In this document: positions 38,865 to 43,833 of the stretch, piece after piece
Layout: every line of letters starts with the position of its first letter
Position numbering within the stretch: the first letter of the stretch is position 1
Assembly (NCBI RefSeq): GCF_000025725.1
Contig: NC_013943.1
Location: forward strand, 2,418,001-2,482,000
From: Denitrovibrio acetiphilus DSM 12809
Lineage (GTDB): Bacteria; Chrysiogenota; Deferribacteres; Deferribacterales; Geovibrionaceae
Direction of reading: 5' to 3'
Length of the DNA stretch: 64,000 nt
The notes under the pieces: generated by a model
Seen by the model: the letters and a program-made list of their open reading frames with translations, nothing else
Told to the model about the DNA's origin: nothing
Database searches by the model: none
Program-made: the position numbers and the translations under genes

Positions 38865-38895
38865 TAAAAGGCGGAGCACTTGCTCCGCCTTTTTT
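38865..38895. terminator. Bidirectional terminator between ybgF and glyA
   Basis: GGCGGAGC-ACTT-GCTCCGCC (38869-38888) flanked by AAAA and TTTTTT, so it works for both converging genes. Confidence 0.93.
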
Positions 38896-38898
38896 CGT

Positions 38899-40137
38899 TT
38901 AGAGGCCGGGAGGTTGGAACTTAACACAAAGCTCCTTGACTTCTTTTGATATATTTTCGAGAACCTCTTCATTTTCAAAATTCTCTATAGCTTTATTTAT
39001 CCACTGGGCAGTTTTTTCAACTTCTGCCTCTTTAAATCCTCTTGACGTAACCGCAGCAAGCCCCATCCTTATACCGCTGGGATCAAAGGGTTTTCTGGTA
39101 TCATAAGGCACAGCGTTACAGTTCAGAACGATTCCTGCCTTATCGAGAGCCTTTGCGGCCTGTTTTCCCGTGATATTTTTGTTGCTCAGGTCTATGAGAA
39201 GCAGGTGATTCTCTGTTCCGCCGGTGACAAGCTGATACCCCATAGACGTCAGGCAGTCCGCCATTTTTCCGGCATTTTTAACTACCTGTGCGGCATACTC
39301 TTTAAATTCAGGCAGAAGTGCCTCTTTCAGAGCAACAGCAATCCCCGCTGTCGTATGATTATGCGGTCCACCCTGGATCCCGGGGAAAACAGCTTTATCA
39401 ATAGCTGCGGCATATTCCGCTTTACAAAGAAGCATACCGCCCCTTGGTCCTCTGAGAGTTTTATGTGTTGTTGTGGATACAACATCGGCATAAGGGACAG
39501 GCGAAGGGTGAACACCGCCGGCAACAAGCCCTGCAAAGTGTGCCATATCGACGAAAAGAACCGCGCCGACTTCGTCAGCTATCTCTCTGAATTTTCTAAA
39601 ATCTATCTGTCTCGGATAAGCTGAGTGCCCTGCAATAATCATTTTTGGTTTACTCTTAACTGCTAATTCCCTTATGGTTTCGTAGTTAAGAAGTCCTGTG
39701 TCCCTGTCCAGTTCATATGAAACGATATTAAAATATTTCCCTGTGATGCTTACCGGCGAGCCGTGGGTAAGGTGCCCGCCATGCGAAAGGGACATGCCCA
39801 TGACAGTATCACCGGGCTTAACAAAAGCAAGATAAACCGCCATGTTTGCAGGTGAACCTGAGTAGGGCTGAACATTAGCATGTTCCGCACCGAAAAGCTC
39901 TTTCGCACGTTCAATGGCAATAGTTTCGATAGGATCAATGAACTGCTGCCCCTCGTAGTATCTCTTTCCGGGGTAGCCTTCAGAATATTTATTGGTTAGA
40001 ACATTCCCTGTAGCCTCCAGCACGGCGTGAGAAACATAATTTTCTGAAGCGATCAGACGGATTTTGTCAATTTGCCTCTGCTCTTCCTGTTTGATAAGTC
40101 CCGAGACCTCGGGGTCGAAATTTGAAAGGTGTTCCAT
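38899..40137 (-). CDS. glyA: Serine hydroxymethyltransferase
   Basis: PLP enzyme interconverting serine and glycine with tetrahydrofolate, the main source of one-carbon units. Starting at ATG 40135-40137 it has 412 residues ([12 protein letters not shown]); an upstream ATG at 40161 contains the ribosome-binding site itself and is rejected. PLP lysine in [16 protein letters not shown] (about 228), N-terminal IASENYVS and [13 protein letters not shown]-type segment. Controlled by a ZTP riboswitch upstream. Confidence 0.97.
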
Positions 40138-40169
40138 GATAAAAAGCCTCCTTTTTTCCATGTCCGGAC

Positions 40170-40212
40170 AAAAAAAAGTCCAGACGTTTCATATTACTGA
40201 AACAGCCCAGAC
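40170..40212 (-). terminator. Terminator stem of the glyA ZTP riboswitch
   Basis: On the minus strand GTCTGGGC-T-GTTTCA pairs with TGAAAC-GTCTGGAC (14 pairs, some G-U, one bulged base, loop GTAATA), followed by eight Ts (40170-40177). Its 5' arm is the conserved 3' element of the aptamer (40205-40212), so ligand binding and terminator are mutually exclusive. Confidence 0.8.
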
Positions 40213-40282
40213 GCACGGCTTCTTATAATTGCTGTACTCCCCGGAGGTGTTCTCCTCCAAAAGCGTCAGTCATACAGCTAAG
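40200..40282 (-). ncRNA. ZTP (pfl) riboswitch upstream of glyA
   Basis: On the minus strand: P1 GCTGTA (40273-40278) with TACAGC (40231-40236); conserved TGACTGACG next to it; a GGAGG/CCTCC hairpin; conserved GGGGAG before the P1 3' strand; then GCCGTGCGTCTGGGC (40205-40219). This is the ZTP aptamer order (TGACTGGCG ... GGGGAG ... CCGCCTGGGC); the change GGCG to GACG is matched by CGCC to CGTC, a compensating pair. ZTP/ZMP signals low 10-formyl-THF; switching on glyA is an established output. Confidence 0.88.
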
Positions 40283-40371
40283 TAAAATCTAATCAAATTA
40301 ATCGATATTGTCAAAGGATTATTTAATGTCTAAAAAATATGCATAAAAAACACATACTCAGGGACATTTCA

Positions 40372-40406: not shown

Positions 40407-41801
40407 ATGAGAAAAATAAGAGTACTAGTTGTCGATGACGAAGAGAACATCCTCTGGCTCCTTAAAGAAGGACTTTCTGATGAAAAAATCGACGTACTAA
40501 CAACAACAGAACCGAACATGGCAGAAAATTATCTGGCAAAAGGTGTCGATATATGCCTCGTGGATATATTCCTCGGAGAATATAACGGCATCAGCCTCAC
40601 AGAAAAATGGTCTAACCTTTTCAAAGAAACACACTTCATTATAATGACTGCTCAGGACACAGGCTCTAATGTTATAGAATCAATCAAATCCGGAGCAAAA
40701 GATTTCTTTTCAAAGCCTTTCGACCTACTGGAACTTAAAAACAAGGTCATCTCCCTATGCGGGAATATACCACAGAGCACAATTTCAGACAGTAAAGAGT
40801 ACGATTTCGAAACAAAAAACAAAAAGATGCTCGAGATATACAAGCTGATAGGCAAGATATCCAAAACTAATATCAATGTGCTCATACTGGGCGAATCAGG
40901 AACCGGCAAAGAGGTCATCGCAAGGATGATCCACAAACAGTCAGCACGCAGCGAGCGGCCTTTCGTCCCCATAAACATGGCGGCAATCCCGAACGAACTA
41001 CTTGAAAGCGAACTGTTCGGTCACGAACGAGGATCTTTCACAGGCGCCATCGGCGATAAAAAAGGTAAATTCGAAGAAGCAAACCACGGCACTATCTTTC
41101 TGGATGAAATATCTGAAATGGATATGGGGCTTCAGTCAAAGCTTCTGCGCGTTATTCAGGAGAAAGAAGTTACAAAGATAGGCTCCAACAAAACCCTAAA
41201 GCTTGATACCAGAATTATTGCAGCCTCTAACAGAAACCTCGAAGAACTCGTCTCTACAGGTAAATTCAGAGAAGACCTGTACTACAGACTTAATGTCGTA
41301 TCCATAGAGCTGCCGCCCCTTTATGAAAGAAAAGAAGATACAGCCTATCTCACCAACCATTTCCTTCATAAACATCAATCAATCAAAGATAAAGTGCTCA
41401 CATGCAGTGAGGAAGCCCTTGACGCTATGACAGCATACCGATGGCCGGGTAATATCAGAGAGCTTGAAAATAGTATTCAGTATGCTATTGTAAATGCAGA
41501 AACAGATGTTATCAAGCTCGAAAATCTGCCGCCTAAGATTTTTGAACAGGGGACAGGCTCCGGTAAGTCCAGTACATCTCATGACCTCTATAAACTGGCA
41601 CTGAACATTATCGAATCAGAAATACTTTCTGAGGGTAACAACGCCTACGACGAGTTCATGAAAATTGTTGAGTACCCTATAATAAAAGCTGTTATGGATA
41701 AAACAGGCAACAACAAATCAGTATCAGCCAAAATACTTGGCATCAATAGGAATACCTTCCGCAAAAAGGTAAGGGAACACGGTTTTGAACAAGACTCTTA
41801 A
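40407..41801 (+). CDS. Orphan NtrC-family sigma-54 response regulator
   Basis: 464 residues: receiver (phospho-Asp in CLVDIFLGEYNG, about 52), AAA+ ATPase with Walker A GESGTGKEVI (about 160) and RpoN loop HERGSFTGA (about 208), and a Fis-type C-terminal helix-turn-helix with GNNKSVSAKILGINRNTFRK. No histidine kinase is adjacent. Its 3' end overlaps the start of rnr by 17 bp, an unusual pairing that suggests co-expression. Targets unknown. Confidence 0.88.
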   Translation: MRKIRVLVVDDEENILWLLKEGLSDEKIDVLTTTEPNMAENYLAKGVDICLVDIFLGEYNGISLTEKWSNLFKETHFIIMTAQDTGSNVIESIKSGAKDFFSKPFDLLELKNKVISLCGNIPQSTISDSKEYDFETKNKKMLEIYKLIGKISKTNINVLILGESGTGKEVIARMIHKQSARSERPFVPINMAAIPNELLESELFGHERGSFTGAIGDKKGKFEEANHGTIFLDEISEMDMGLQSKLLRVIQEKEVTKIGSNKTLKLDTRIIAASNRNLEELVSTGKFREDLYYRLNVVSIELPPLYERKEDTAYLTNHFLHKHQSIKDKVLTCSEEALDAMTAYRWPGNIRELENSIQYAIVNAETDVIKLENLPPKIFEQGTGSGKSSTSHDLYKLALNIIESEILSEGNNAYDEFMKIVEYPIIKAVMDKTGNNKSVSAKILGINRNTFRKKVREHGFEQDS

Positions 41802-43833
41802 AATTTTAAATAGAAGCAAAAAACCTCTGACGTTTAAGCAGCTGCTTTCACAGTCTGGGCTTGATGCAAAGACGCTGAAAAGACAGCTTCGCGATCTAGT
41901 ACGTCAGAATAAAGCAGAAAAATATCGCAACGGAACATTTGTATCTAAAAACACCCCCACCGAAATCACAGGCAAACTTGACCTGCACCCTAACGGTTAC
42001 GGCTTTCTCTCACATGATGGAGAAGGACGGGACATCTTCATCCCCAAAAATAAGATGAACGGTGCTATGCACGGCGACAAAGTCACTATATCACCAGAGA
42101 CATTCAGGGGCAAACAGGAAGGGCGTGTCGTTGAAATTGTCGAACGATCCGAACAGAAAATTGTCGGCAGGATAGAAAATCTCGCCGGAATCATGCGTGT
42201 GGTTCCGATGACCAGAAAGGTAAACACTTACATATATCTCACATCAAATAAAGTTCAGTACAAAGACGATACTGTTGTTCTGGTTGAGCTGACCCATTTC
42301 CCATCTGAGGGCTCCGCAGCCCGAGGACAGGTGAACAAAGTTCTGGGGATGCTGAGTGACCCCCGCATAGAAGATGAAATCGTGCTTAACAGATACGACA
42401 TAGATAAAGTCTACCCTGAAAGTATCGAGAAATATGTCGAAAAAACATCGCCTGAGCTTATGAAAAATCCGGGCGCAAGAACAGACCTCCGAAGCCTGCC
42501 CACAGTAACTATTGACGGCGAAACAGCTAAAGACTTTGACGATGCAATATCTATCGAGAAGACAGAAAATGAATTTATTCTCTATGTTCATATAGCTGAC
42601 GTCTGCCACTTTGTTCAGCCGGGAACACCGGTGGATAACGAAGCCTACCGAAGGGGCACGAGCTTTTATTTCCCTGAATTTGCTGTACCCATGCTGCCGG
42701 AAAGCCTATCTAACGGGCTTTGCAGTCTGCGTCCTAATGAAGACAGGCTGGCGTTAACAGCAAAAATAACTTATACAAAAGACGGACAGAGAAAAAAAGC
42801 TTATTTCTACCGTTCAATAATAAACAGCGACAGAAGACTTACATATAACTCTGTGAATGATGTGCTTGAGAAAAACACCAAAGAGAAAGATAAGGCAATA
42901 CTCGACCTGCTTAAAGATTCAAAAGAACTGGCAGGGAAAATAATGGTGCGCAGAGCAAAAGCCGGAATGCTTGATTTTGACTTTCCGGAAACAACCTTTG
43001 AACTGGACGAAAATGGCGAAGTAACGGCTATTATTCCGGCAGAAAGGCATCTCTCACACAGGATCATAGAGCACTTCATGATAGAAGCAAATGAAGTTGT
43101 CAGTGAATTTCTGGAAAAGCATACAAAAAAATCTGTCTACAGAATACATGACAAACCTGACCCTATGAAGCTTGAAGACTTCGCAGGTCTGGCTGCAACA
43201 TTCGGAGTTGATGTAACTGTAAAAGACGTTACCCCGAAAGATGTAAAAAAGATCAATGAAGCCGTAAACAACTCTGATTATGCGGACATACTCGGCGGCG
43301 CTCTTGTGCGGACAATGGCAAAAGCTGAGTACAACACCAACAATATCGGTCACTTCGGGCTTGCCTCAGATTCATACACACACTTCACCAGCCCGATACG
43401 CAGATATCCTGACCTCATGGTGCACAGGCTGATCTGCAACACGCTTTTCGGTACTGAATATCACAGTGAAGCAGGACTTGACGATGCATGCAAGCTCTCA
43501 ACAGAAAACGAACAACGGGCAGAAAATGCTGAGCGAGACATCAGTAAATTCAAAAAACTTAAATATCTGGCAAAACATGTCGACGAACCTTTCGGGGCTG
43601 TCGTAATGTCTGTCGGCGCATTTGGTCTCAATATATATATCGAATCCGTAATGCTGAAGGGGACTGTTTCTCTTGAGTCAATCCCGGGAGATGTCTATCA
43701 GTTCATGAAAAAAGAACAGATAGTCAGAGGGAGGGTCACCGGCAAAATGTTCCGCGCTGCCGACCTGATAGAAGTAATGGTCGAACGTATCGACATGGAC
43801 ATGCAGGAAGCATACTTTTTTCCTGCCAAATAA
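41785..43833 (+). CDS. rnr: Ribonuclease R
   Basis: 3'-5' exoribonuclease of 682 residues. N-terminal winged helix (LKRQLRDLVRQNKAEKYRNG), cold-shock domain (GYGFLSHDGEGRDIFIPK, about 72), RNB catalytic domain with TAKDFDDAISIEK (about 250) and the HFTSPIRRYPDLMVHRL motif (about 530), and a C-terminal S1 domain (about 600-680). It lacks the long basic tail of E. coli RNase R. The start lies inside the preceding regulator gene. Confidence 0.95.
   Translation: MNKTLKILNRSKKPLTFKQLLSQSGLDAKTLKRQLRDLVRQNKAEKYRNGTFVSKNTPTEITGKLDLHPNGYGFLSHDGEGRDIFIPKNKMNGAMHGDKVTISPETFRGKQEGRVVEIVERSEQKIVGRIENLAGIMRVVPMTRKVNTYIYLTSNKVQYKDDTVVLVELTHFPSEGSAARGQVNKVLGMLSDPRIEDEIVLNRYDIDKVYPESIEKYVEKTSPELMKNPGARTDLRSLPTVTIDGETAKDFDDAISIEKTENEFILYVHIADVCHFVQPGTPVDNEAYRRGTSFYFPEFAVPMLPESLSNGLCSLRPNEDRLALTAKITYTKDGQRKKAYFYRSIINSDRRLTYNSVNDVLEKNTKEKDKAILDLLKDSKELAGKIMVRRAKAGMLDFDFPETTFELDENGEVTAIIPAERHLSHRIIEHFMIEANEVVSEFLEKHTKKSVYRIHDKPDPMKLEDFAGLAATFGVDVTVKDVTPKDVKKINEAVNNSDYADILGGALVRTMAKAEYNTNNIGHFGLASDSYTHFTSPIRRYPDLMVHRLICNTLFGTEYHSEAGLDDACKLSTENEQRAENAERDISKFKKLKYLAKHVDEPFGAVVMSVGAFGLNIYIESVMLKGTVSLESIPGDVYQFMKKEQIVRGRVTGKMFRAADLIEVMVERIDMDMQEAYFFPAK

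Follow-up and report, generated by a model that had tools for sequence, protein, structure and literature searches.

On sequence grounds, the leader of glyA, the gene for serine hydroxymethyltransferase (SHMT), in a 64,000-nucleotide stretch of Denitrovibrio acetiphilus DSM 12809 (the window in what follows) carries a genuine ZTP riboswitch that is ordinary of its class. Our best reading, to which we assign a probability of roughly 0.93, is that this element would sense ZMP/ZTP (the mono- and triphosphates of 5-aminoimidazole-4-carboxamide ribonucleoside) and act as a transcriptional ON switch of glyA. The Rfam covariance search that an initial annotation of this DNA had proposed matched RF01750 (ZMP-ZTP) to 40283-40198 of the minus strand over the entire model (positions 1-86 of 86; cmscan) with 60.9 bits, well above the gathering score of 39, and an E-value of 2e-7 (64 kb, both strands). 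This was the sole Rfam match within the window, and the aptamer is the only one of its kind in the whole 3,222,077-base genome. The elements that the initial annotation had listed could each be located, in the order given, on the minus strand:

40198..40283, minus strand: ZMP/ZTP aptamer (RF01750: P1, P2, P3, pseudoknot), based on the covariance match and P1 covariation
40278-40272 with 40237-40231, minus strand: P1
40272-40264, minus strand: TGACTGACG
40258-40254 with 40247-40243, minus strand: P2
40242-40237, minus strand: GGGGAG
40220-40217 with 40207-40204, minus strand: P3
40267-40264 (GACG) with the 3' strand 40213-40210 (CGTC), minus strand: pseudoknot

The segment under study folds at -36.6 kcal/mol (z -2.96), a stability reached by none of 200 shuffles. 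When 51 genomes of the phylum were searched for ZTP aptamers, nine had one, all of them members of the window's own family (three genera), and in all nine the gene immediately behind the aptamer is an orthologous glyA. Those of the other eight genomes are 82-85% identical to the glyA of the window. In an alignment of these nine leaders (alignment A1, window included), which are kin, three P1 pairs are changed on both sides, every homologue forms standard pairs at all 14 of the aptamer pairings tested, P3 and the pseudoknot are 100% paired, and neither the pseudoknot nor the core columns flanking it vary. The compensating change from GGCG/CGCC to GACG/CGTC that had been pointed out in the pseudoknot is right, but the pairing is fixed in all nine homologues and found in unrelated ZTP aptamers too, and is therefore no special feature of the locus.

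Downstream, the aptamer runs into a terminator and the gene itself:

40178..40212, minus strand: intrinsic terminator hairpin (8 + 6 pairs, one T bulged out) that has the aptamer's 3' element as its 5' arm
40170..40177, minus strand: T8 tract of the terminator
40147..40153, minus strand: Shine-Dalgarno (SD) sequence AAGGAGG
38899..40137, minus strand: glyA, SHMT, 412 amino acids (NCBIfam NF000586, 617 bits, cut-off 335)

The overlapping 14-pair terminator with eight Ts, likewise proposed before, was borne out: GTCTGGGC pairs with GTCTGGAC (8 pairs) and, past a bulged T, GTTTCA with TGAAAC (6 pairs), after which the T tract follows (40177-40170). Because the 5' arm GTCTGGGC (40212-40205) holds most of the 3' strands of both the pseudoknot and P3, aptamer and terminator are mutually exclusive, and ligand binding should therefore prevent termination. 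All nine homologues preserve the lower eight pairs of the terminator (100%), with one-sided changes only. The SD sequence (40153-40147) starts 17 nucleotides past the last U of the tract, and the glyA start lies 60 nucleotides downstream of the aptamer match; this is a one-carbon gene, as expected for the RF01750 class. An in-frame ATG at 40161, directly past a hairpin described below, would add 8 codons to the glyA reading frame; the SD sequence speaks for the start at 40137.

As proposed, the switch would work as follows. With 10-formyl-tetrahydrofolate (10-formyl-THF) scarce, PurH would stall and ZMP/ZTP would climb; the ligand would stabilise P3 and the pseudoknot before the 3' arm of the terminator is transcribed, RNA polymerase would read through, and more SHMT would provide 5,10-methylene-THF from serine. 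The genome contains purH, while no formate-THF ligase was detected in it, so that serine via SHMT is likely the main one-carbon source and an increase in SHMT would be a sensible answer to a shortage of 10-formyl-THF. That the ligand prevents the terminator and thereby turns the gene on, as the initial annotation held, agrees with the covariance match, the exclusion between P3/pseudoknot and terminator, the SHMT assignment, and the published ZTP mechanism, in which aptamer and terminator exclude each other and the ligand prevents termination (PMC7337938, PMC7484762), through the same competition between P3 and terminator as seen here (PMC7337938). Its statement that low folate raises SHMT had the direction right, though the signal would more exactly be low 10-formyl-THF, sensed through the accumulation of ZMP/ZTP.

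Two observations weigh against this ON switch. A simple terminator scan of the region did not list the hairpin of the glyA leader, probably because of its bulge and AT-rich top. Besides, at columns 79-107 and 82-104 of alignment A1 the lower terminator stem has G-U pairs that never change, so the terminator may leak. One could also argue that the aptamer is an OFF switch, given that a tandem ZTP OFF system has been predicted upstream of moeA (PMC9481103), or that the aptamer has lost its ligand response and the leader attenuates constitutively. We regard both as very improbable, since the strand common to aptamer and terminator gives ON logic and the pseudoknot and flanking core columns did not vary among the nine homologues. 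The family, the target gene, the terminator overlap and the direction of control assigned by the initial annotation all stand, but it left out a second glyA, a hairpin behind the terminator, and a complementarity between a P3 strand and the SD region. The latter two involve these segments:

40162..40185, minus strand: post-terminator ('lock') hairpin with the T8 tract in its loop (hereafter the post-U hairpin), formed by the terminator 3' arm GTCTGGAC (40185-40178) and GTCCGGAC (40169-40162)
40217..40226, minus strand: AUAAGAAGCC, made up of the 5' strand of P3 and a linker and complementary to GGCUUUUUAU at 40148-40139 (end of the SD sequence plus spacer)

Written as RNA, the post-U hairpin is GUCUGGAC-U8-GUCCGGAC, in which all eight bases pair, one of them as G-U. 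With -13.4 kcal/mol its duplex is the strongest among 49 terminator-like sites (median -5.3 kcal/mol) in ∼460 kb of genome, made up of 20 stretches (∼398 kb) and the window. The hairpin occurs in all nine homologues, hence in three genera, at -11 to -16 kcal/mol, and 95.8% of its six core pairs are formed. At two terminator positions (columns 82-104 and 79-107), the pairing with the aptamer arm is invariably G-U and that with the post-U arm always or nearly always Watson-Crick. No two-sided compensatory change was found in this helix among the nine homologues; because the changes are one-sided only, it is without covariation proper. The hairpin can form only after read-through, and we infer that it would then prevent the terminator from re-forming in the mRNA. 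For ZTP riboswitches, the terminator fold is reported to be the thermodynamically more stable one and the decision to be kinetic (PMC7337938). The palindrome was also considered as a second or reverse-strand terminator, an idea we rejected as no suitable T tract follows it on either strand.

The duplex between AUAAGAAGCC and GGCUUUUUAU comprises 10 pairs at -11.0 kcal/mol, a value matched by 2 of 123 genomic SD regions (1.6%). In two shuffling runs, 1.8% of 1000 sequences and 0 of 300 sequences, respectively, paired as strongly. The corresponding duplexes of the relatives range from -6.7 to -9.4 kcal/mol, and each of the nine leaders falls within the top 0-3% when compared with the 123 SD regions. 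In one genus (g2), both sides have changed and pair in a shifted register, with -7.9 kcal/mol for the cognate partners versus -1.6 to -5.5 kcal/mol for swapped ones; a two-sided compensatory change in register was not found in any of the nine leaders. Without ligand, the minimum fold computed for the read-through leader contains the terminator plus the SD helix in most of the nine, whereas a slightly longer segment of the window has P3 and the post-U hairpin as its minimum fold rather than the SD-covered form. (A hairpin around the SD sequence in this longer-segment fold was dropped, for it did not recur in the relatives by eye.) In constrained ensembles, computed SD accessibility rises on switching from 0.07 to 0.78 in the window and from 0.02 to 0.60 in leader L002; in the other leaders the opening of the SD sequence is small or absent, with the AUG opening in L008 and L009. 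A strong claim of SD opening was thus weakened by the ensemble calculations, being clear in the window and L002 only.

As controls we used 23 terminator-type ZTP leaders from Fusobacteriota and seven further terminator-type ZTPs; Fusobacteriota is what we take to be the phylum of the control group containing genome G078. The Fusobacteriota leaders displayed no pattern, with shuffle p-values of 0.03 to 0.98 for a post-U hairpin and of 0.2 to 0.94 for an SD helix (in leaders with a placeable SD sequence). The seven others were mostly negative: post-U pairing in L125 and L126 is moderate (about -10 kcal/mol), and L125 also has an SD-type duplex reached by 1.6% of the background. We therefore rejected the two pairings as a general feature of the ZTP class, noting the partial resemblance in L125 and L126. 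Two ZTP aptamers lie in G078 (L109, L125) and three in another genome, G382 (L116, L126, L127).

Two views of these extra helices have to be weighed, both of which leave the ON switch in place. The one to which we lean, if slightly, accepts the core switch set out above and treats both extra pairings as by-products: the post-U arm resembles the aptamer's 3' element, and the SD pairing would amount to GCC facing the GGC at the end of the SD sequence and an A-rich stretch facing a U-rich one. The lack of two-sided covariation and the mixed accessibility results are consistent with this, as is the relatedness of the nine leaders, which makes their p-values non-independent, so that individual p-values are not to be multiplied. 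On the other hand, both pairings are kept in three genera although surrounding sequence and spacing have diverged, the post-U duplex outranks every other terminator-like site of the genomic sample, and the Fusobacteriota controls lack such a pattern. The other view extends the ON switch to a two-tier platform in which termination would be followed by translational switching of the read-through RNA: if P3 opens, its 5' strand could mask the SD sequence and spacer, whereas in ligand-bound RNA the post-U hairpin may sequester the terminator 3' arm, leaving P3 intact and the SD sequence open. We hold these two steps with less confidence than the termination switch itself. Pointing towards them are the exceptional rank of the SD-region duplex in all nine leaders together with the preference of g2 for its own partner, the terminator-plus-SD-helix form in most ligand-free folds, the strength of the post-U hairpin throughout the nine relative to the background median, and the fact that neither pairing is conspicuous in the 23 Fusobacteriota leaders, bar the one post-U value with p 0.03. 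A large computed SD opening is limited to the window and L002, however, neither helix has a two-sided compensatory change in register, and the longer segment of the window prefers P3 with the post-U hairpin. Given the mixed accessibility results, we grant two-tier control about one chance in three.

The second glyA of the genome (G000:C1:2016639-2017850; L022, L141) is 54% identical to the riboswitch-borne copy and has no ZTP match. It groups closest with the glyA of the rest of the order and is of the native type, whereas the riboswitch-borne copy groups with glyA from Spirochaetota and Desulfobulbales (clade support 97 in a quick tree with Shimodaira-Hasegawa-like approximate likelihood-ratio support only); this tree gives the grouping and does not fix a direction of transfer. 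Two sequences in that group, L025 and L035, bear ZTP aptamers as well. The native gene sits in a nadA-rpiB-glyA-comEB-rnfC run in the window's genome as well as in two others of the same genus, and a third genus shares this run with rpiB not detected. All eight genomes that have the riboswitch copy only (L204-L211) still have nadA, rpiB, a comEB-like gene and rnfC adjacent to each other, but without glyA between rpiB and comEB, where a gap of ∼22 bases remains in L204. The riboswitch copy is the sole glyA in two sister genera, and its neighbours differ in each of the three genera compared. Read plainly, the gene arrangements suggest that an acquired SHMT gene under riboswitch control displaced the native one; the window's genome, which keeps both, apparently represents an intermediate state. 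The full scenario would be a three-helix, two-tier ZTP platform (one strand exchange deciding termination, the post-U hairpin keeping the aptamer refoldable, and the freed P3 strand gating the SD sequence) whose cassette moved together with the foreign glyA and, in two genera, took the place of the native SHMT gene; as a whole, we consider this tentative and rather doubtful. In the two Spirochaetota metagenome-assembled genomes, the aptamers (L025:1373-1458 and L035:1384-1465) precede glyA and no T tract was seen; that of L025 looks translational, with a GACC/GGUC pairing over its SD sequence.

Other features border the riboswitch and its gene:

40286..40314, minus strand: sigma-70-like promoter TTGACA-17-TAGATT (10 of 12 matches; about 3 such per region are expected by chance in such scans)
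38866..38893: hairpin where glyA and a ybgF-like gene converge, lying between their ends and T-tailed on the plus strand

Transcription is expected to start near 40279, at the foot of P1, and a TTGACA/TTGACT -35 box stands at a similar place in the relatives, as read from their sequences. The promoter adjoins a divergent gene for an NtrC-family response regulator of the sigma-54 type (40407-41801, plus strand), the end of which overlaps the gene for RNase R (41785-43833, plus strand).

With this switch, Geovibrionaceae (Deferribacterota) join the bacteria in which SHMT should be under ZTP control. The locus also holds an evolutionary lesson, in that a native SHMT gene lacking a riboswitch is gone where a stand-alone, riboswitch-controlled foreign one is present. 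If the two added pairings prove functional, they would illustrate how the outcome of a transcriptional riboswitch that is decided kinetically can be protected from reversal within the mRNA. This problem arises from the finding that, of the competing ZTP folds, the terminator has the greater stability (PMC7337938).

ZTP control of glyA is not new. The gene is among the five commonest associated with the pfl motif, and such control with overlapping terminators was described in 2010 (Weinberg 2010, PMC2864571), as was, in 2020, a ZTP riboswitch upstream of glyA in Herbaspirillum seropedicae (HSERO_RS06140; PMC7011215). Those cases share RNA class and gene with ours, which differs in belonging to another phylum and in sitting at a second, acquired-looking glyA. 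The papers covered by our search contain no description of the post-U hairpin or the P3/SD complementarity; as the central ZTP studies from 2015 and 2019 lay outside it, absence of these pairings from the literature is not established. Compared with known RF01750 members (C. beijerinckii pfl, F. ulcerans, T. carboxydivorans), the glyA leader has the same fold, pseudoknot, overlap of the P3 3' strand with the terminator, and ON logic. It has GACG/CGUC in place of GGCG/CGCC, a variant recurrent elsewhere in the class, and it has the two extra pairings, for which the Fusobacteriota leaders of that class gave no pattern. Dual transcription and translation attenuation platforms, with the ribosome binding site inside the terminator, are a recognised category (Barrick and Breaker 2007, PMC2258182), and here, too, one aptamer could govern both termination and ribosome access. 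In those platforms, however, the binding site lies within the 3' side of the terminator, whereas in the glyA leader the freed P3 5' strand would mask an SD sequence located downstream of it.
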